NCBI RefSeq assembly: GCF_038396635.1
Contig: NZ_CP121687.1
Coordinates: 1,922,001 to 1,986,000, forward strand
Reading direction: 5' to 3'
Source: Defluviitalea saccharophila
GTDB taxonomy: Bacteria > Bacillota > Clostridia > Lachnospirales > Defluviitaleaceae
Length of the DNA stretch: 64,000 bases
How positions within the stretch are numbered: the stretch's first letter is position 1; every line of letters begins with the position of its first letter. The position numbers and the translations under genes were made by a program. The notes below the pieces were generated by a model. That model made no database searches, was not told where the DNA came from, and was given only the letters and a program-made list of their open reading frames with translations. Shown one piece after another: positions 51,611-62,908 of this stretch.

Positions 51611-51738
51611 TTTGAAATAAAAGTACTCTTTTCCTGTGAGTTTAGTAAATATATTGAAAAGTTTGGGGTTTAAGTATACAATTATAGTTAGGTTGTACAA
51701 TAGACAATGGCATAATGTAAGAGTAAAGAGGATGAAAT

Positions 51739-52746
51739 ATGAAGAATAAATACTTTGCAACTTTTGTTTTGCTTTTAGTCATTTTAATTTTAACCGTGAC
51801 GGGACTCATTTTTTACCGAATTAGAAGCACCCTTAGCAATGTGCAGCAAAATACGGGAATCATCGTTCCCAATCAAATTCCGGTATATCATTTTGCGATG
51901 ATCTATAAAGATGACGATGCACCGGCCTGGCTTTCCATCAAAAAAGGTGTAGAGAGAGCATCTAAGGAATTTAATGTAGCTGTAGAATTTAATGGTGTTG
52001 GTACATCTGATGAAGATGATTTATATAAATACTTAGATATTGCCATAGCTTCCAAAGTAGACGGAATAGTGACTTATGTCTGGGATGATGTTCAAACCGG
52101 TCTTCTAATTGACAATGCTATGGAAGAGGGAATACCGGTTGTCACCATAGGGACGGATGCGAAAGAAAGTAAGCGTATTGCCTTTGTGGGAGAAAATAAG
52201 TATGCTTCCGGCATTCAGTTGGGCAGAATGATGATTGCAGCCACAGGGGAGCAAGGAGAAGCAGTTATTTTAGACCGCAATAAACAAGGCAACGAATTAA
52301 TGGCACAAAACCTGATGATCATGGGTATCCGAGACAGCCTAAAACAGTACTCCGATATTCATATCACAAAGGTTGAATACGATGATTCCAACTTTCTTGG
52401 CATTGAAGATGCAGTCAGCTCTTTGATTAAAAACAATTCAAAGCTAAGTACCATAGTATGTACCTCTGAAGAAGACACCCTGGCAGTGGCAGATATATTA
52501 GTGGATTTAAACAAGGTAGGCTATAATATTATTGGATATGGAGATTCTCCTGAGCTATTACGGTATATAGAACGAGGCGTTGTCTTTGGTACAGTGGATG
52601 TGGACCATGAACAGATGGGCTATGACACGATTCGCGCCTTGGTGGATATTAAACAACAGGGCAGAACATCTGCTTATTTTAAAGTGAATTCATTTCCAAT
52701 CACAAGAAAAAATGTTTCTGAATATTTAAAGTCTGGAGAAGAGTAA
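51739..52746 (+). CDS. Membrane-tethered sugar-binding sensor protein
   Basis: A 335-residue periplasmic-binding-protein type 1 domain with an uncleaved N-terminal membrane segment (about residues 5-26) and no lipobox. The ribose/galactose-binding fold is visible from FAMIYKDDDAPAWLSIKKGV through ASKVDGIVTYVWDD, IPVVTIGTDA, DTIRALVDIK. It sits directly before the kinase gene (0-1 base between stop and ATG), so its likely role is to present a sugar to the kinase, as known for XylFII with the LytS-type kinase in Clostridium beijerinckii. Its ligand is not predictable and its sequence differs from the second tethered protein at 55888. Confidence 0.85.
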   Translation: MKNKYFATFVLLLVILILTVTGLIFYRIRSTLSNVQQNTGIIVPNQIPVYHFAMIYKDDDAPAWLSIKKGVERASKEFNVAVEFNGVGTSDEDDLYKYLDIAIASKVDGIVTYVWDDVQTGLLIDNAMEEGIPVVTIGTDAKESKRIAFVGENKYASGIQLGRMMIAATGEQGEAVILDRNKQGNELMAQNLMIMGIRDSLKQYSDIHITKVEYDDSNFLGIEDAVSSLIKNNSKLSTIVCTSEEDTLAVADILVDLNKVGYNIIGYGDSPELLRYIERGVVFGTVDVDHEQMGYDTIRALVDIKQQGRTSAYFKVNSFPITRKNVSEYLKSGEE

Positions 52747-54270
52747 ATGAAGTTATTAAGAGAATTAAGAACCTTTTGGGGAAAACATACATTTAAAAAG
52801 CGATTAATCATTTATTTTACGGCGATGATTCTTTTAATGAGTGTCACCAGCATATTTCCGTTTTATACCATTAGCGTATTGATGGAGGAAATGAGTAATA
52901 CCTTTGAAATGAACGTAAAGCTCAATGATCTTCATAAAACCCTTGGAGACTTAAACAATGTATATGAAGAATACTTAAACTTAAAATATTCAAGAAGCCT
53001 TGATGACTATTATAAATACTGCAATAAATTAAAAAAAGACGCCGATTCTATCAAAATCGATTATAGCAATATTGAAAATGCCCTGATGATTAAGGACATT
53101 AAAAATATGATTACAACGTATTTGGAAGAAACCGATGCTGCCGTTATGGCCCGAAGAGGAAGGGCAGTGGATGAATATTATTTATATTATACAAAGAGCA
53201 ATAAGATATTTGGTTATATTAATGAATACATTCAAAAGCTTAATAACTCTTTGTTTTTACAAAATACAGACAGATATTTATCAGTAAATAAGAGAGTATA
53301 TCTTGTAGAGACCTTAAATATAGGCGTTATAATTTCTGTTGTTTTACTCAATATAATACTAATGATTTGGTTTACCTATAACATTACACAGCCGATTTCT
53401 GAGCTTTCAAAGGCTGCAGACGAAATCACCCATGGAAATTATGATGTTCCCCATATAAAAGTGGATTATGAGGATGAAATAGGGGTTATGGCCCGAGCGT
53501 TTAATCGTATGACCCAAAGTATCAGGGAGTATGTCAGTGAAATAAAGGAAAAAGCAGAATTAGAAAGCAGATTAAAAGAACAGGAAATGGAGAACCTCCG
53601 TATAAAGAGCGATCTTAAGGAGGCTGAGCTCCATGCCCTGCAAGCTCAAATCAATCCTCATTTTTTATTTAACACCCTTAATACAGGGGCGCAGCTTGCC
53701 ATGCTTGAAGGAGCGGACAGGGCTTGTACCTTTATCGAGCGTACTGCAGATTTACTGCGATACAATCTTAGGAACTTAGATAAGCCCGTTACCATTGGAG
53801 ACGAAATTAAAAATATAGACAACTATATGCATTTATTAAAGGAGCGTTTTGCAGACAGAATAGAATTCATATTAGAAATAGACGAAAGCATTCTTGATGT
53901 GAAGATACCCAGTATGATCTTACAGCCCATCGTTGAAAATGCATTGATGCATGGACTAGGGGATATGGAGAATACAGGTACGATATGGGTTAAGACCTAT
54001 CGTACCGATTCCTTCGCGGAAATTTCGATTAAAGATAACGGCAAAGGTATTACAGAGGAAAGAATACAGGAAATATTATCTGGTCAAACAAGAGAAAATA
54101 ATACGAATAATAGATCCAACGGTATAGCCATTAATAATATTTTAAGCAGGTTAAGGATTTTTTATAATCAAGACAATATCATGAGCATCTATAGTGAGAT
54201 AGATGGTGGCACAGAAGTAGTTCTGCGTATACCTCTTAATTATGAAGATAGGAGGGATAGCAATGGTTAG
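52747..54270 (+). CDS. Sensor histidine kinase, LytS/YesM type
   Basis: A 507-residue membrane kinase. It has two hydrophobic segments (about 19-42 and 190-210) around an extracytoplasmic helical region of about 150 residues, a HAMP domain (211-264), a coiled coil, the His_kinase motif with His305 in QINPHFLFNTLN and a C-terminal ATPase domain (NALMHGLGD, DNGKGI). The phosphoacceptor motif is of the LytS/YesM family. Gene neighbours on both sides code for tethered sugar-binding proteins, so it is likely the receiver of that signal. Coupled to the response-regulator gene by overlap. Confidence 0.93.
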   Translation: MKLLRELRTFWGKHTFKKRLIIYFTAMILLMSVTSIFPFYTISVLMEEMSNTFEMNVKLNDLHKTLGDLNNVYEEYLNLKYSRSLDDYYKYCNKLKKDADSIKIDYSNIENALMIKDIKNMITTYLEETDAAVMARRGRAVDEYYLYYTKSNKIFGYINEYIQKLNNSLFLQNTDRYLSVNKRVYLVETLNIGVIISVVLLNIILMIWFTYNITQPISELSKAADEITHGNYDVPHIKVDYEDEIGVMARAFNRMTQSIREYVSEIKEKAELESRLKEQEMENLRIKSDLKEAELHALQAQINPHFLFNTLNTGAQLAMLEGADRACTFIERTADLLRYNLRNLDKPVTIGDEIKNIDNYMHLLKERFADRIEFILEIDESILDVKIPSMILQPIVENALMHGLGDMENTGTIWVKTYRTDSFAEISIKDNGKGITEERIQEILSGQTRENNTNNRSNGIAINNILSRLRIFYNQDNIMSIYSEIDGGTEVVLRIPLNYEDRRDSNG

Positions 54271-55846
54271 AGTCATGCTCGTAGACGATGAGAAGATCGT
54301 AATAGATTCTTTACAATTTATTATAGAAAAGAATTTTGACAATGTGGAAATCGTTGAAATTGCCAGATCCGGCCGGGAAGCCATTGAGAAAATAGAATAT
54401 GTCGTACCGGATATTGTGTTCATGGATATAAGGATGCCAGGGATTAATGGTATTGAAGCCATTAGAGAAATCAAAAAGAGGCATAAGTCGATTATCTTTA
54501 TTGTACTGACTGCCTTTGATCAGTTCGAATTTGCAAAAGAAGCCATCAAATTGGGGGTCTTTGAATATCTGTTAAAGCCTGTTAATCGTGCAAAAGTAGT
54601 AGAGGTTATTGAAAAGGCGATAGAAACCATTAAGGTAGAAAGAGAAAAGAGAAAAGTAGAATTGGAGTTAAAGGAAAAGTTGGAAACGGTTCTTCCCATA
54701 CTTGAACACGGCTTTATTTATTCTATGATATTATTTGAAGACAATTACAAAGAACTTTTAAATTATAAAGATCTTTTTGATATAGAAGAAAACGGTGGAT
54801 ATGTCATGACGGTCGAGTTCGGGGAAGAAGAAAACGGAACCTTAGAAAATAAAATAGGTTACAGCGTTCGCAGCCAAGGCTTTTATCCCTTTTTTAGAGA
54901 TACAATCAATATGCTTCGAAAATGCATTGTTGGCCCAGTCATGTTAAATCGTATCGTTGTATTTGTTCCCTGTGAAGCCCAGGCAGACGAATTTACATCC
55001 CGACTGGAAGCAGTGTCCTTTGCAGACAAGCTTTTTCAAAAGCTGTCGGAACGATTAAACTGCGGCTTAAAGATCGGTGTAGGAAGAACCTATGAAGGGT
55101 TTGACTCCCTTAGCAATTCCTATGAAGAATCCTTAGAAGCCTTAAGAAGTCTTACTGCTGTAGGGGTTATGCATTATATGGATATGCCTAATGTAGTCCA
55201 TCGCAGCCAAGGCTATCCTCTCCATAGAGAAAAACTTTTGCTGCAGAAGGTATCTGCGGGAGATGTGGAAGAGAGCTTAGAGGAACTTAATCATCTATTT
55301 GAATGGCTGGTAAGAGAATATGGAGACCAGATTTTAAAAATCAAGAATAAGCTGCTTGAAATTATTTTTTTGGTATATCGTATTGCCTGGGAATCCGGCA
55401 TGGAGGAAGATACCAATGAAGTCTTTTTCCTCGAAAAAATGCTTTCCATGAAAGACATGAGCGAAGTGAGACTTTGGTGTAAAAAAAGGGTTGAACATGT
55501 GGCGGAGCAAATCCGCGCAAGCCGTGAAAACAGAGCAGGAACTCTAACAAAGAAAGCAAAAGAATATATCGACGCAAACTATGCAAAATCCATTACCTTA
55601 GAAGATGTTTCAAGAGAAATCAACGTAAGTCCCCAATATTTCAGTAAACTTTTTAAAGAAGAAACTGGTAAAAACTTTATTGACTATTTGACAAACATTC
55701 GTATTTCAGCTGCAAAAGAGTTATTATCCCGAGGCAATTTAAGCATCAAAGAAATTTGCTACCACATAGGATACAGCGATCCCAACTATTTCAGCAGAAT
55801 ATTTAAGAAGGTTGTGGGCGTAACTCCGACAGAGTATAAGGAATAG
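54263..55846 (+). CDS. Response regulator, YesN/AraC type
   Basis: A 527-residue regulator. The N-terminal receiver has acidic pocket VDDEK, phosphoacceptor Asp55 in FMDIRMPG and conserved Lys in YLLKPV; a long middle region (about 130-420) is of the YesN type; the C terminus has two AraC helix-turn-helix motifs (LEDVSREINVSPQYFSKLFK and IKEICYHIGYSDPNYFSRIF). ATG 54263 is selected, with AGGAGGG (54250-54256) 7 bases upstream, over an earlier in-frame ATG; it overlaps the kinase stop by 8 bases. Likely activates xylFGH, whose promoter has a good extended -10 but a poor -35. Confidence 0.93.
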   Translation: MVRVMLVDDEKIVIDSLQFIIEKNFDNVEIVEIARSGREAIEKIEYVVPDIVFMDIRMPGINGIEAIREIKKRHKSIIFIVLTAFDQFEFAKEAIKLGVFEYLLKPVNRAKVVEVIEKAIETIKVEREKRKVELELKEKLETVLPILEHGFIYSMILFEDNYKELLNYKDLFDIEENGGYVMTVEFGEEENGTLENKIGYSVRSQGFYPFFRDTINMLRKCIVGPVMLNRIVVFVPCEAQADEFTSRLEAVSFADKLFQKLSERLNCGLKIGVGRTYEGFDSLSNSYEESLEALRSLTAVGVMHYMDMPNVVHRSQGYPLHREKLLLQKVSAGDVEESLEELNHLFEWLVREYGDQILKIKNKLLEIIFLVYRIAWESGMEEDTNEVFFLEKMLSMKDMSEVRLWCKKRVEHVAEQIRASRENRAGTLTKKAKEYIDANYAKSITLEDVSREINVSPQYFSKLFKEETGKNFIDYLTNIRISAAKELLSRGNLSIKEICYHIGYSDPNYFSRIFKKVVGVTPTEYKE

Positions 55847-55887
55847 TTATAATGCATTAAAAGAACCATTTAAATAGGGGGGGTAAC

Positions 55888-56964
55888 ATGCATTATTTTA
55901 AAAAGGTATTCATATTGCTTTGCCTAGTTGTAATTTTTTTTGCTGTGCTTAAAGTATACTTTAAAAAAGACATCGTAGGAAAAGCTCAGGAAGACACAAA
56001 GGAAGACAAAATCATCATTGGCTTTGCAATGGATACCCTGGTTCATGAAAGATGGCTTAGAGATCGGGATATCTTAGTTTCCAGAGCCAATGAACTGGGG
56101 GCGGAAGTCATTGTACAGACTGCCAATAGCGATGGAGAAGAGCAAAAGAAACAAGTACAGTACCTCTTAGATCAAAACATCGATGTCCTGGTATTGGTAC
56201 CTCATGATGCAGAAAGTGCAGCCAGTATCGTAAAAGCTGCCAAAAACAAAGGTGTAAAAGTGATTTCCTATGACAGATTAGTAAAGAAGGCCAATGTAGA
56301 TTTATACATATCCTTCGATAATATTAAAGTAGGAGAATTGATGGGGCAGGCTGCCATGGAAGCTGTTCCAGAAGGAAATTATCTAATATTAAACGGCTCA
56401 GAATCGGATAACAATTCTTTTATGTTTAACGAAGGCTATAAAAATGTGCTGGGTGATAGTATTAGGAGCGGAAAGATTAATATTGTCAGCGAAACCTGGG
56501 TTAAAGATTGGCTCTATGAAGACGCTTTCAAATTCGTAGATGAAGTTTTGCACACAGATACCGAAATTAATGCCATTATTGCAGCCAACGATACCTTAGC
56601 TTCAGCAGCAGTCAATGCCTTGGCAGAAAGAAGGCTTGCCGGGAAAGTGGCGGTTATAGGGCATGATGCAGATCTGGATGCATGCCAGAGAATTGTTGAA
56701 GGAATACAAGTTGCAACGATTTATAAACCTATTGATAAAATTGCTAAGATTGCCGTAGAATATGCTATCAATATGGCAAAAGGCGGCTTGGTACAGACCG
56801 ATGAGAAAATTTATGACGGAAAGTATTATATTCCTTATTACAGAATAGAGCCTGTACTGGTCACAAAAGAAAATATGGTAGACGTTATTATAGAAGATAA
56901 ATTTCATGCGTTGGAAGACGTATATATGAATATACCTAAATCCCAGCGCCCTCAGGTGGATTAA
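55888..56964 (+). CDS. Second membrane-tethered xylose-binding-like sensor (XylFII-like)
   Basis: A 358-residue protein closely related in outline to the xylose-binding lipoprotein encoded at 57144 (for example IKVGELMGQAAMEAV compared with VAVGKAQGQYLID, and VKVISYDRLV compared with VTVISYDRLI) but with an uncleaved N-terminal membrane segment (about 5-24) and no lipobox. HERWLRDRD corresponds to EPRWVQDET, a ligand-contact segment. This is the organisation of XylFII, the xylose sensor of the LytS-type kinase. A G-rich site (GGGGGGG) precedes the ATG, and a terminator separates it from xylF. It is the second tethered sensor in this cluster. Confidence 0.88.
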   Translation: MHYFKKVFILLCLVVIFFAVLKVYFKKDIVGKAQEDTKEDKIIIGFAMDTLVHERWLRDRDILVSRANELGAEVIVQTANSDGEEQKKQVQYLLDQNIDVLVLVPHDAESAASIVKAAKNKGVKVISYDRLVKKANVDLYISFDNIKVGELMGQAAMEAVPEGNYLILNGSESDNNSFMFNEGYKNVLGDSIRSGKINIVSETWVKDWLYEDAFKFVDEVLHTDTEINAIIAANDTLASAAVNALAERRLAGKVAVIGHDADLDACQRIVEGIQVATIYKPIDKIAKIAVEYAINMAKGGLVQTDEKIYDGKYYIPYYRIEPVLVTKENMVDVIIEDKFHALEDVYMNIPKSQRPQVD

Positions 56965-57001
56965 AAGTAAGCTGTTCGTTATAGGACAGCTTACTTTTTT
57001 T
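56965..57001 (+). terminator. Terminator after the XylFII-like gene
   Basis: AAGTAAGCTGT and ACAGCTTACTT form an 11-bp stem with a 10-base loop and a T run. Confidence 0.88.
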
Positions 57002-57090
57002 AATGATAAAAAAATCCTATTTAGGTATAAAGTAATATAAAAATAGTGAAAAATATACAGAAGGGCATTAAGTATGTCTAGTTAGAGTTG

Positions 57091-57099
57091 TGCTATAAT
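57091..57099 (+). promoter_or_regulatory. xylF promoter, extended -10
   Basis: TGC-TATAAT is a perfect extended -10 element 44 bases before the xylF start; the -35 region is poor, consistent with activator dependence. AGCGGAAACGCT (57110-57121) after the start point is a short inverted repeat. Confidence 0.6.
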
Positions 57100-57143
57100 T
57101 ACATCATCAAGCGGAAACGCTATAAAAAAGAGGAGGGTATTAC

Positions 57144-58319
57144 ATGAAAAAACTATTCACAAAATTAGCAGCTCTTGCAGTTGCGGGAATAATGACAGTT
57201 GGAATGTTTACTGGATGTTCTTCTCAACAAACTACTGAACAACCTGCTGGAGAACAACCAGCACAAGAACAACCAGCAGCACAAGCACCAAGTTCCGGTG
57301 GCAGTGTAGACATCGGTATCGTACTTCCAACAAAGGACGAACCAAGATGGGTGCAAGACGAAACTAGATTTATTGACGCTTTAAAAGATACTGATTACTC
57401 TGTAGAAATTTTATTCAGCCAAGGATCTTCTGCAAAGGAAAAAGAAAATGTTGAAGCATTACTTGCTAAAGGAATCAAAGTTTTAATTATCTGCCCACAT
57501 GACGGTGCAGCAGCAGCAGCGGCAGCAGAAGCAGCTAAAGCTGAAGGTGTAACAGTAATTTCTTATGACAGATTGATCACAGATACAGATGCAGTTGATT
57601 ACTATGTAACATTCGATAGCGTTGCAGTTGGTAAAGCACAAGGACAATACTTAATCGACAAAGCAAGCGGAACAGGCAACCCACTTTACTTATATGCTGG
57701 TGCAGCTTCCGACAACAATGCATTCTTATTCTTCGAAGGTGCATGGTCTGTATTACAACCAAAAGTTGCTGATGGTACTTTCGTAATCAAAAACTCTTCC
57801 GAAGCTGTAGCACTTCAAGACAAAGCTACATTAACTCGTGAAGAAATGAGTAAAATTATTTCCCAAGTAACAACAAACTGGGATTTCAACGAAGCTAAGA
57901 ACAAAGCAGAAGCTCACTTAACAGTGGCTAAAGCAGAAGATAAAGGTGACGTATTTATTCTTGCTCCAAACGATGGAACAGCTCGTTCAATCGCAGACGT
58001 ATTTGCATCTGATAAAGATGTAACAAGCTATGTAGTAACAGGACAAGACGCTGAAAAAGCTTCTATCCAATACATTATCGATGGAAAACAATCCATGACA
58101 GTATTCAAAGACGTACGTACACTTGTTAAAGATTCCATCGCAATGGCAGTTTCCTTATTACAAGGAACAACACCAGAAACAACTGGTTCTTACAACAACG
58201 GTAAAACTGATGTTAAAGCAAAACAAACAGAAGTTATCGTAGTTGACCAACAAAACGTAAAAGCTGCATTGATTGATTCTGAATACTATAGTGCAGACGA
58301 ATTCACAGGTCTTCAATAA
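57144..58319 (+). CDS. xylF: D-xylose ABC transporter substrate-binding lipoprotein
   Basis: A 391-residue lipoprotein of the XylF type. The lipobox is FTGC (Cys25), followed by a Gln/Pro/Ala-rich tether to about residue 52. The mature domain starts DIGIVLPTKDEPRWVQDETR and contains VLIICPHDGAAAAAAAEAAK, VISYDRLITDTDAVDYYVTF and SDNNAFLFFEGA. Xylose is the most likely ligand. RBS is GAGGAGG. A strong hairpin lies between it and xylG, presumably giving more binding protein than transporter. Confidence 0.92.
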   Translation: MKKLFTKLAALAVAGIMTVGMFTGCSSQQTTEQPAGEQPAQEQPAAQAPSSGGSVDIGIVLPTKDEPRWVQDETRFIDALKDTDYSVEILFSQGSSAKEKENVEALLAKGIKVLIICPHDGAAAAAAAEAAKAEGVTVISYDRLITDTDAVDYYVTFDSVAVGKAQGQYLIDKASGTGNPLYLYAGAASDNNAFLFFEGAWSVLQPKVADGTFVIKNSSEAVALQDKATLTREEMSKIISQVTTNWDFNEAKNKAEAHLTVAKAEDKGDVFILAPNDGTARSIADVFASDKDVTSYVVTGQDAEKASIQYIIDGKQSMTVFKDVRTLVKDSIAMAVSLLQGTTPETTGSYNNGKTDVKAKQTEVIVVDQQNVKAALIDSEYYSADEFTGLQ

Positions 58320-58394: not shown

Positions 58395-59927
58395 ATGGGA
58401 AATCAAAATTATATCTTAGAAATGAGAAACATTACAAAAGAGTTCCCGGGAGTAAAGGCTTTAAGTAATGTAAATTTCAAAGTTAAACAGGGTGAAATAC
58501 ACTGCCTTGTAGGTGAAAATGGAGCCGGGAAATCCACACTTATGAAAGTTTTAAGTGGTGTATATAAATATGGTGAGTACAGCGGGGATATTGTTTATAA
58601 CGGACAGGTTCAAAAGTTTACAACGGTAAGAGACAGTGAAAATGTAGGAATCGCAATCATATATCAAGAATTAGCACTTGTTCCTGAATTAACAGTATAT
58701 GAAAATATTTATTTAGGCCATGAAATTAAAAATGGCTCTATCATTGACTGGAATGCTACCATCGTAAAAGCTACTGAAATGTTAAAGAAAGTTGGATTAA
58801 ACATTAATCCTGAAACAAAGATCAAAGACTTAGGTGTTGGTAAACAGCAGCTCGTAGAAATTGCAAAGGCGTTAAGTAAAAACGTAAAATTATTGATTTT
58901 GGACGAGCCTACAGCAGCACTTAATGAAGACGATAGTGAAAACTTGCTGAAATTATTAAAAGAATTACAAAAACAGGGAATTACATCTATAATGATTTCT
59001 CATAAATTAAAAGAAGTTTTAGCAATTGCAGATACAATTACAGTATTAAGAGACGGACAAACAATTTGTTCTATGGATAAAGAGAAAGATGAAATTACCG
59101 AAAATCTAATCATTAAAAACATGGTTGGTCGTGAACTCACCAATATCTATCCGCCAAAAGATTTTAAACACGGAGAAGAAGTTGTATTAGAACTTAAAAA
59201 CTGGAGTGCCCATGATACAAGTCTTGGAAGAGACGTTCTAAAGAATGTTAACATCAAGGTTAAAAAAGGTGAAATCGTAGGATTAGCTGGATTGATGGGT
59301 GCCGGAAGAACAGAACTTGCTCAAAGTATTTTTGGAAACGCGAAGGATTACAAATTACAAGGAGAATTATTTGTTAACGGAGAAAAGAAAGTCTTCAAGC
59401 AACCCAGCGACGCTATCAAAGCAGGTATTGCATACGTAACAGAAGACAGAAAAGGTGACGGACTAATACTTATTCAAAATATTAAACAAAACATTTCTAT
59501 TTCCAATTTACAATCTATAGCATCCAATAGTGTGATCGACGAAAATGAAGAAATTATGATTGCCAATGGATATAAAGAAAGTTTAAATATTAAAGCACCA
59601 AGCATTGAACAGATCGTTGGAAACTTAAGTGGTGGAAATCAGCAAAAAGTTTCTTTGGCAAAATGGTTATTTGCAAAGCCAAATATTCTAATACTGGATG
59701 AACCAACCCGAGGTATTGACGTAGGGGCTAAATATGAAATTTATACTTTCATGAACCAGTTAGTAAAACAAGGCATGAGCATTATCATGATATCTTCTGA
59801 GTTACCGGAAGTATTGGGTATGAGTGACAGAATCTATGTTATATCCGAAGGTAGAGTTACTGGTGAATTACCAATAGAAGAAGCTACCCAGGAAAGAATC
59901 ATGGAAATGGCGACCAAGGGGGATTAA
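58395..59927 (+). CDS. xylG: D-xylose ABC transporter ATP-binding protein
   Basis: A 510-residue tandem ABC protein. The first domain has Walker A GENGAGKST (residues 40-48) and Walker B LLILDEPTAALNE; the second has GLMGAGRTE, signature LSGGNQQKVSLAKW and LILDEPTRGIDVGAKYEIY. Sequence and position fit XylG. Unlike the second domain of the BMP-type ATPase at 2309, the second Walker B here keeps Asp-Glu. A GGAG site lies before the ATG. Followed by xylH after 3 bases. Confidence 0.93.
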   Translation: MGNQNYILEMRNITKEFPGVKALSNVNFKVKQGEIHCLVGENGAGKSTLMKVLSGVYKYGEYSGDIVYNGQVQKFTTVRDSENVGIAIIYQELALVPELTVYENIYLGHEIKNGSIIDWNATIVKATEMLKKVGLNINPETKIKDLGVGKQQLVEIAKALSKNVKLLILDEPTAALNEDDSENLLKLLKELQKQGITSIMISHKLKEVLAIADTITVLRDGQTICSMDKEKDEITENLIIKNMVGRELTNIYPPKDFKHGEEVVLELKNWSAHDTSLGRDVLKNVNIKVKKGEIVGLAGLMGAGRTELAQSIFGNAKDYKLQGELFVNGEKKVFKQPSDAIKAGIAYVTEDRKGDGLILIQNIKQNISISNLQSIASNSVIDENEEIMIANGYKESLNIKAPSIEQIVGNLSGGNQQKVSLAKWLFAKPNILILDEPTRGIDVGAKYEIYTFMNQLVKQGMSIIMISSELPEVLGMSDRIYVISEGRVTGELPIEEATQERIMEMATKGD

Positions 59928-59930
59928 AAT

Positions 59931-61160
59931 ATGAGTCAGGTGGTAAAAAGTCAAAGTAATACAAATCCAGTTGACAACCAAGGAGGAGCGACTATGAGCT
60001 TTTTTCAAGAATTAAGAGTGTTATTAAAAAAGAATATTCGTGAATACGGAATGTATATCGCACTCGTTGTGATTATGGCAATCTTTTCTTTTACAACGAA
60101 TGGGCTTTTTATGTCTTCAAGAAATATCAGTAACTTAATTAACCAAACAGGTTATATTGCAGTATTAGCAGTTGGTATGACATTGGTGCTTATTATCAGA
60201 CAGATTGACTTATCCGTTGGTTATGTAGCAGGATTTTTAGGCGCTATAGCAGCAATTATGCTTACCAAAATGGGATTGCCTGTAATCGTTACATTACCAG
60301 TTATTCTTGTTTTAGGAATAATAATTGGTTTATATCAAGGATTTTTAGTTGCTAAACTTAGTATTCCTTCTTTCGTAGTAACCCTTGCAGGAATGTTAAT
60401 CTTCAGAGGTGCATTGCTTCGTGTTACAGAAGGAAGCGGTACAATCATCATCGATAACAAAGCATTCAATGCTATAGGAAATGGATTCATCCCTGATATC
60501 ACTAATGGAAGAATTCATATCTTAACACTTATTTTAGGAGCAGTAGCAGTTGCATTATTTATCTGGACTGAACTTAAAGCAAGAAGAAATAAGCTAAAAT
60601 ATAATTTCGAAGTAATTTCTCCAGCTATGTTAGGTGCTAAAATCGTACTTGTATCCGCAGTTATTGGATACATCACATGGATCCTTGCAAACTACAACGG
60701 ATTATCCTGGACAGTAGTTATCGTAATTATAGTAGTTGCTATCTATCATTTTATTACAACCAAAACTGTTGTAGGACGATATGTATATGCAGTAGGTGGA
60801 AATCCTGAAGCAGCAAAATTAAGTGGTATTAATGTAAATAAAATCATATTTATAGTATATGCATCTATGAGTATGTTAGCGGCATTATCCGGTATTCTTT
60901 ATACTTCCAGATTACAATCTGCAACCACAACAGCAGGTACAGCATTCGAGCTTGATGCGATTGCATCTGCATATGTAGGCGGTGTATCCGCAGCCGGTGG
61001 AGTTGGTAAAGTAACTGGATCCATTGTTGGTGCATTGGTTATGACTGCATTAACCAGCGGTATGAACCTTATGGGAGTAGGTATTTCTTACCAATACATC
61101 ATCAAAGGTATCGTACTTGTAGGGGCAGTAGTATTTGACGTAATGACTAGAAAAAAATAA
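59931..61160 (+). CDS. xylH: D-xylose ABC transporter permease
   Basis: A 409-residue permease of the RbsC/XylH family with ten or so hydrophobic segments. The coupling loop is AVGGNPEAAKLSGINVNKI; the C terminus has DAIASAYVGGVSAAGGVGKV. Two starts are plausible: ATG 59931 and ATG 59994. The latter has a very strong AAGGAGGAG 7 bases upstream and would remove 21 polar residues. The last segment of the protein ends VVFDVMTRKK, as usual for XylH. It completes the importer. Confidence 0.92.
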   Translation: MSQVVKSQSNTNPVDNQGGATMSFFQELRVLLKKNIREYGMYIALVVIMAIFSFTTNGLFMSSRNISNLINQTGYIAVLAVGMTLVLIIRQIDLSVGYVAGFLGAIAAIMLTKMGLPVIVTLPVILVLGIIIGLYQGFLVAKLSIPSFVVTLAGMLIFRGALLRVTEGSGTIIIDNKAFNAIGNGFIPDITNGRIHILTLILGAVAVALFIWTELKARRNKLKYNFEVISPAMLGAKIVLVSAVIGYITWILANYNGLSWTVVIVIIVVAIYHFITTKTVVGRYVYAVGGNPEAAKLSGINVNKIIFIVYASMSMLAALSGILYTSRLQSATTTAGTAFELDAIASAYVGGVSAAGGVGKVTGSIVGALVMTALTSGMNLMGVGISYQYIIKGIVLVGAVVFDVMTRKK

Positions 61161-61231
61161 CAGTGAGTCAAGGTATTTATAATAACCAACGTCTGTTGTA
61201 TAATTAATATAGACAGATGGGGGGGGGATAT

Positions 61232-62908
61232 ATGAAGAAAGTCAGCGATAAGATGGTACTTACCACACTGCTCATCATTATAGTTACTGCGTTAGGGATA
61301 GGCATTCCAAGTTACCATACAACTGTTACCCAAAGCGATCAAATACTATATACCCAAATGGACCAGCAAACAGCCAGTCTTTTTGGAATTGTGGAAGGCT
61401 TTAGGGCGGTAGCACCATCGGAAGAAGCGGCTAAAAAACAATTTACAAAATATCTTTCAAATCGCGTTATAGGTAAAACCGGGTACGGTTTTATAATTAG
61501 TGGAGATGGTAAATTCGTTCTTCATCCCAAGGAAGAGTTAATCGGTACCGATGCACTGCAGCATCAATTTGCTCAAATCATGCTGGCAAATAAAGACAAC
61601 GTTAATAATAACGGATATGGTCGTGCAAAGGTAAAAATGGTTTCTTATTTTTGGGAAGGAAAAGAAAAGTTTGCATACTACACATACCATCAAGACTGGG
61701 ATATGTTCATTGCCCTATCCGGTGTTTATGATGAATTTATCGCTGCACAAAAATCTGCATTGTGGACGTTACTAATTTTCGGAACAGTCGTTTTGATTTC
61801 CGCAGCAATTCTTGTGTATGTGATTATGACTCAGCAGATGAAGCCAATAGTATTGCTGTCTAAGGCAATGAAAGAAGTAGAGAAAGGAAATCTCAACGTA
61901 AACATGATCACAGTAAAGCGTAAAGATGAGATAGGTGTTCTCGCTAATGGCTTTAATGGAATGATTAATACTTTAAGAGAATTAACATCCAATATTAAAA
62001 ATACTACAGAAATTCTTCATACAGCAATACAAGATACAAAACAGGGGATCGATCAAACCGTAAGCAGTTCAAGAGAAGTTGCAAGAGCAATCAATGAAAT
62101 TGCCGGTTCCAATCAAGCCCTGGCATTGGACGTAGAAAAAGGTACGTCGGCAATGCAAGTTATCTCCAAATCTGCCCAACATACAAGGGATACCATAACC
62201 CATATGAATAAAATTACGGACGAAGTAGAAATTGCTGTAGAACAAGGAAGCATGGCAACAGAAGATTTGACGGCTAAGTCCAATGAAACCATGAAGACTT
62301 TCAACTGGTTAAATGAGCAGATTAAATTACTTGAAGAAAAATCGAAAGAAATTTCTTCAGTTACGGGGGTTATACGTTCCATTTCGGAACAAACAAACTT
62401 ATTATCCTTAAATGCGGCTATAGAGTCGGCTAGAGCAGGGGAAGCCGGAAAAGGTTTTGCCGTAGTAGCCGATGAAATCAGAAAGCTGGCTATAAAATCT
62501 GCAGAGCAGACTACTTCTATCAATAATTTTATAGGAGAAATCCAGCAGCAGATTAAAGGTGTAGTGGAATATATGATCAAAGGTCAAGAGACTGTGGAAG
62601 AGCAGGATCAGACCGTTAAAAAAACAAATTTAGCGTTATTAGAAGTTCGCAATAAGATGCAAGACATGTCTGAGTATATCAACATGATTACAAAGCAAGT
62701 TATTGAAGTAGCTAAAAATACGGAAAGCAGTGTAGCGATGGTAGAAAGCATATTAGCTACTTCCGAGCAAACCTGTGCGAATTCTCAAGAAGTAACAGCA
62801 TTAACAGAACAGCAATTAGCGAGCGTACAGACCATAGAAATTACGGTCAATAAGCTCAATGATTTATCAAATAATCTCTCTCAAATGGTGAATAAGTTTA
62901 CCTTATAA
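61232..62908 (+). CDS. Methyl-accepting chemotaxis protein, Cache sensor
   Basis: A 558-residue chemoreceptor. A membrane segment (about 8-27), a single Cache-type extracytoplasmic domain (about 28-175, including [20 protein letters not shown]), a second membrane segment (about 178-202), HAMP (about 203-256) and the signalling domain with [23 protein letters not shown] 61232 is selected because a G-rich site lies directly upstream; the ATG at 61217 begins in that G tract. It follows xylH and may direct movement towards pentoses, which is only a suggestion from position. Confidence 0.92.

Follow-up and report, generated by a model that had tools for sequence, protein, structure and literature searches.

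The closest described relative of the locus analysed here is XylFII-LytS-YesN, reportedly a sugar-sensing system of Clostridium beijerinckii (Sun 2015; Li 2017; PDB 5xsj, 5xss, 5xsd), in which a TM-anchored XylFII-like binding protein (SBP), the kinase LytS and the regulator YesN are encoded in the same order as here, near a CUT2 transporter. In Geobacillus, GanP and AraP (PDB 6gq0, 6sw4) are sugar-binding proteins of the same fold and are linked to sensor kinases. XylFII binds the four-helix bundle of LytS, and the resulting complex is 2:2 (PMC9769921, PMC10384115).

The window, that is the whole stretch of 64,000 nucleotides of Defluviitalea saccharophila DNA that was analysed, belongs to a genome consisting of a single contig of 3.01 Mb. 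Four tightly packed genes at 51739-56964 encode SBP1, a kinase, a regulator and SBP2, and are followed on the 3' side by those for SBP3, the transporter proteins (GguA-like and GguB-like) and a chemoreceptor (Table 1). An earlier note on this DNA had placed the kinase and regulator between two tethered binding proteins and had related the locus to XylFII-LytS-YesN, but with two such proteins in place of one; both claims hold, down to coordinates and gene order. As in that system, the gene of a TM-anchored XylFII-type protein lies directly 5' of those for a LytS kinase and a YesN regulator. SBP1 and SBP2 are both Peripla_BP_4 proteins, each with an N-terminal hydrophobic helix that looks uncleaved and has no lipobox. 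We propose that the locus is quite probably a four-component, split-receptor version of XylFII-LytS-YesN, in which SBP1 would be the ligand-blind partner of the kinase and SBP2 the sugar-binding input.

Table 1. Features of the locus, with positions in the window.
Feature	Positions	Strand	Description	Basis
Promoter-like site 5' of signalling operon	51654..51682	+	TTGAAA-17-TACAAT, 10/12 matches	consensus scan only
SBP1	51739..52746	+	XylFII homologue, TM-anchored, sugar pocket lost	PDB phmmer, pocket alignment
LytS-type histidine kinase	52747..54270	+	TM, ~150-aa extracytoplasmic helical region, TM, HAMP, His_kinase, HATPase_c	Pfam
YesN-type response regulator	54263..55846	+	receiver, GGDEF-like, AraC HTH	Pfam; RBS and ATG at 54263
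SBP2	55888..56964	+	XylF-like, TM-anchored, nine XylF contacts retained	NCBIfam, PDB matches
Intrinsic terminator 3' of SBP2	56966..57001	+	12-bp stem, T-run; boundary between sensor and transporter operons	fold -19.3 kcal/mol
Conserved element CATTAAGTATGTCTAG (57066-57081), then TATAAT (57094-57099)	57066..57099	+	candidate promoter with regulator site, transporter operon	
SBP3	57144..58319	+	ChvE-like lipoprotein, transport binding protein	NCBIfam ChvE 253 bits (below cut-off); lipobox FTGC
GguA-like ABC ATPase	58395..59927	+		NCBIfam GguA 773 bits, just below cut-off 810
GguB-like permease	59931..61160	+		NCBIfam GguB 428 bits, just below cut-off 450

The sample comprised 393 genomes of the order. 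A profile search for SBP1 separated about 100 true places, scoring at least 204 bits, from other binding proteins, scoring at most 153 bits, and assigned SBP1 to 97 genomes, about a quarter of the sample. In an independent search SBP2 exceeded its cut-off in 94 genomes, all of them with SBP1, and none of the 393 had SBP2 only; three had SBP1 with no SBP2 above the cut-off, among them G134, where SBP2 scores just below it. Among 93 loci that were read, with a six-frame profile search for SBP2, 88 have the order SBP1-kinase-regulator-SBP2, SBP2 is missing from two (L063 and L154), and the remaining three run into a contig border. That the gene order recurs far beyond chance is thus borne out by 88 of the 90 fully readable loci, and in these SBP2 stands beside SBP1, whereas XylFII-LytS-YesN has exactly one sensing binding protein. 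Dual loci also occur outside the order, within the same class (L231-L239, L241). The carriers appear to be gut and digester bacteria in which a sugar, probably xylose, is sensed by two anchored proteins beside one kinase. One genome of the order holds four consecutive genes for CUT2-type binding proteins that are weakly SBP1-like (L190:6249-10633).

By sequence, SBP1 is a homologue of XylFII. Its best PDB matches (phmmer) are the XylFII structures 5xsd, 5xsj and 5xss, with E ~1e-36, and GanP comes next; the earlier note's description of this protein as ribose/galactose-like has to be corrected accordingly. The AF2 model of SBP1 is weak (pLDDT 57, from four closely related sequences), and in a fold comparison with it 5xsd, entitled 'XylFII-LytSN complex mutant - D103A', ranks first. 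The pocket was compared at the equivalents of RbsB positions 13, 15, 16, 89, 90, 141, 164, 190, 214, 215 and 235, which we take to be the sugar contacts; the mapping rests on an alignment at ~30% identity and on contact lists from the RbsB and XylF literature. At these positions XylFII has NYWDSRASFDQ and the SBP1 of the window AAWGTMSSYGV, with A61, A63, G138, M193, G268 and V288 among its pocket residues. The equivalent of XylFII D103 is G138, and R, D and Q are replaced by M193, G268 and V288. D103 is also the only position at which the two deposited XylFII constructs differ (the D103A mutant). Of the key polar contacts D89, R141, D215 and Q235 (RbsB numbering), none is kept in 88 of the 93 loci of the order and one in the other five, so that, judged from sequence, the intact xylose pocket of XylFII is degenerate in all 93. 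In other clostridia, nine XylFII loci with a single sensor (L222-L230) keep the polar set, one of them with Q changed to P, and pocket residues are mostly kept in the other kinase-adjacent binding proteins of the genome of the window; GanP, whose set is intact, and RbsB hold sugar with the residues that SBP1 has lost.

The absence of the canonical sugar-coordinating residues suggests that SBP1 likely has no sugar site of its own. A pseudogene was considered and is ruled out by near-universal retention and by a dN/dS of 0.11-0.14, which signifies purifying selection and shows that SBP1 is still needed. Outside the order the decay is partial, two of the four key contacts being retained in L234 and L236, and given such pockets some SBP1 proteins might bind another ligand. 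A non-sugar or hydrophobic ligand of SBP1, integrated by the kinase with the signal of a sugar-loaded SBP2, would fit a changed cleft that keeps its aromatic residues (W at the W64 equivalent in 69 of 93 loci, Y at the Y267 equivalent in 67 of 93). Across the 93 loci, however, the pocket positions are only averagely conserved and their replacement follows no consistent pattern, which makes such a ligand very improbable.

SBP2 presents the opposite picture. The claim that the second sensor, at 55888, is close to XylF is confirmed by its best NCBIfam match, xylF (298 bits, below the equivalog cut-off of 390), and by its PDB matches 4ywh/3m9w, E. coli XylF being the closest protein. The nine XylF residues R16, D90, R91, D135, N137, W169, N196, D222 and K242, presumably the xylose contacts of the XylF structure, are kept in 88 of 88 SBP2 proteins; in the window they are R55, D129, R130, D174, N176, W208, N234, D260 and K280. 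The ligand is probably an aldopyranose, most likely D-xylose, with glucose, galactose and arabinose as further candidates. Xylose is made plausible by the presence of xylA and xylB in the genome. The contact set is largely common to XylF and ChvE, so that it defines the ligand as far as an aldopyranose. A scan of genome contigs with SBP2 matched only three near relatives, and an SBP2 100% identical to that of the window is found in a MAG labelled Candidatus Epulonipiscium. In a congeneric genome (L069, G001:C14:8000-26000) the entire dual module is present a second time in diverged form (kinase identity 44%); in the SBP2 of this copy a lipobox-like Cys (CSC) takes the place of the plain TM anchor.

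The earlier note had proposed two sugar inputs to the kinase, or competition between the sensors. Two functional sensors binding different sugars would agree with the anchoring, conservation and kinase-adjacent position of both proteins, with the purifying selection on SBP1 and with the only partly changed pockets in other orders. Yet the lost SBP1 residues have been replaced mostly by apolar ones that differ among relatives, unlike a pocket for a single ligand. As the residues are lost in 93 of 93 loci in SBP1 and kept in 88 of 88 in SBP2, dual input and competition are both unsupported; we consider them rather unlikely, and the two-sugar model was rejected as the main reading on the grounds of the SBP1 pocket.

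SBP2 might instead be a second transport protein for the GguAB-like importer, with no role in signalling. XylF is a transport binding protein elsewhere, single-sensor loci employ an XylF for transport, and SBP2 is a lipoprotein, like transport binding proteins, in roughly 70 of 88 relatives. In the clade of the window and several others, however, SBP2 has acquired a TM anchor, and its gene is tightly coupled to that of the regulator, with a median gap of 11 bp (60 bp or less in 82 of 88 loci), as against 201 bp between SBP2 and SBP3 (60 bp or less in 0 of 81). A terminator hairpin precedes SBP3 in 55 of 79 of these longer gaps, versus 2-4 in dinucleotide shuffles; the opposite strand yields 19 hairpins, so such gaps are hairpin-rich in general. 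The consensus scan did not list the SBP2 terminator of the window, probably because the stem extends into the T-run, and folding shows it. Moreover, SBP2 is co-inherited with the kinase rather than with SBP3: SBP2 distances correlate with those of the kinase and SBP1 at rho 0.82 and 0.81, SBP3 distances at 0.63 and 0.63 (difference 0.19, interval 0.10-0.27). SBP2 also persists without a transporter, in about 14 loci where the 2.4-5.1 kb of sequence covered downstream of SBP1-kinase-regulator-SBP2 contain no CUT2 transporter and the neighbouring genes are unrelated, for instance those of a starch synthase and a LysR regulator. Gap sizes, terminator, co-inheritance and transporter-less loci together disfavour membership of SBP2 in the transporter operon, and a pure transport role is unlikely. 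Operon boundary and co-inheritance point to SBP2 as a part of signalling.

SBP3 is the binding protein that serves the GguAB-like transporter. ChvE, GguA and GguB are the best profile matches of the three CUT2 proteins, but none scores above its equivalog cut-off, and the proteins are therefore named '-like' only. The element CATTAAGTATGTCTAG is conserved in five relatives and has its sole exact copy in the genome here; together with the following TATAAT it is a candidate promoter and regulator site of the transporter operon, as judged from this conservation. In the consensus scan the count of promoter-like sites in the region was not above that in shuffles. A cre-like palindrome, AGCGGAAACGCT, lies at 57109-57121 between the -10 box and the SBP3 start and is common to most near relatives. 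A Cache-domain chemoreceptor gene is found 3' of the transporter in the window (61217-62908) and in near relatives (L052:1466-3175; L055:16050-17726), which suggests that chemotaxis is coupled to the same sugar system.

The possibility, raised in the earlier note, that one sensor belongs to a different kinase is unlikely, since SBP1 and SBP2 are each single-copy in the genome and co-occur almost perfectly. It is weakened further by the other three SBP-associated LytS-type kinases of this genome whose domains were read, all of which have dCache sensor domains. In the AF2 model of the kinase, residues 45-175 are helical (pLDDT ~65-86) and the rest is weak, with an overall value of 52 from four closely related sequences; LytSN was absent among the sequence or fold matches listed. 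Elsewhere, a dCache kinase and a regulator are directly followed by a gene (L077:14024-15910; G000:C1:2148023-2149909) whose 628-aa product has an N-terminal helix and a fusion of two Peripla_BP_4 domains, both of which retain the key pocket residues D89, R90, R141 and D215.

In the preferred split-receptor reading, the membrane-tethered, XylF-derived SBP2 would bind the sugar, while SBP1, the old XylFII sensor, would stay anchored beside the kinase as a structural partner, or adaptor, without a sugar site. Once loaded with sugar, SBP2 would dock on the assembly of SBP1 and kinase, where it might stand in for one of the XylFII copies in the 2:2 complex, and docking would switch the kinase; the phosphorylated regulator would then activate the separate SBP3-GguA-GguB promoter. 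Counter to this reading, L063 and L154, two related loci, have no SBP2 although their SBP1 is degenerate; there the input to the kinase may come from SBP3 or from elsewhere.

It is somewhat favoured that, in several families of the order and in other clostridial orders, the kinase-bound protein gave up its ligand and instead senses whether a second tethered binding protein is occupied by sugar. All SBP2 proteins fall in one clade, apart from transporter XylF, while SBP3 has been exchanged between families. The SBP1 proteins of dual loci form one supported clade versus single-sensor XylFII; the loss of the pocket may therefore be a single event, and its correlation with SBP2 does not represent many independent ones. 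The simplest story is that the sensor operon captured a copy of XylF, the SBP1 site decayed and another binding protein took over transport, and the partial decay outside the order fits such a gradual process.

If this is true, ligand recognition in a sensory complex can pass to a new subunit, with the old sensor staying on as a scaffold, a parallel to pseudo-enzymes and co-receptors elsewhere. XylFII homologues of this order could then not be assigned to xylose sensing by similarity alone, and SBP2 is the protein to assay. No description of the dual-sensor arrangement was found in the open-access literature, and an earlier one is possible.

Among the described systems, XylFII-LytS-YesN has a single sensor with an intact xylose site, whereas the window has an XylFII homologue without the site and a second, XylF-like anchored protein. 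GanP, which SBP1 matches best after XylFII, retains its sugar residues and, like AraP, acts as a single sensor. E. coli XylF and Agrobacterium ChvE are closest to SBP2 and SBP3, respectively; SBP2 carries the XylF contact residues but goes with the kinase operon rather than with the transporter. CuaDSR of Ruminiclostridium cellulolyticum likewise has separate sensing and transport proteins around a kinase and regulator, but its single high-affinity sensing protein comes from another SBP family and has no ligand-blind partner (PMC10384115).
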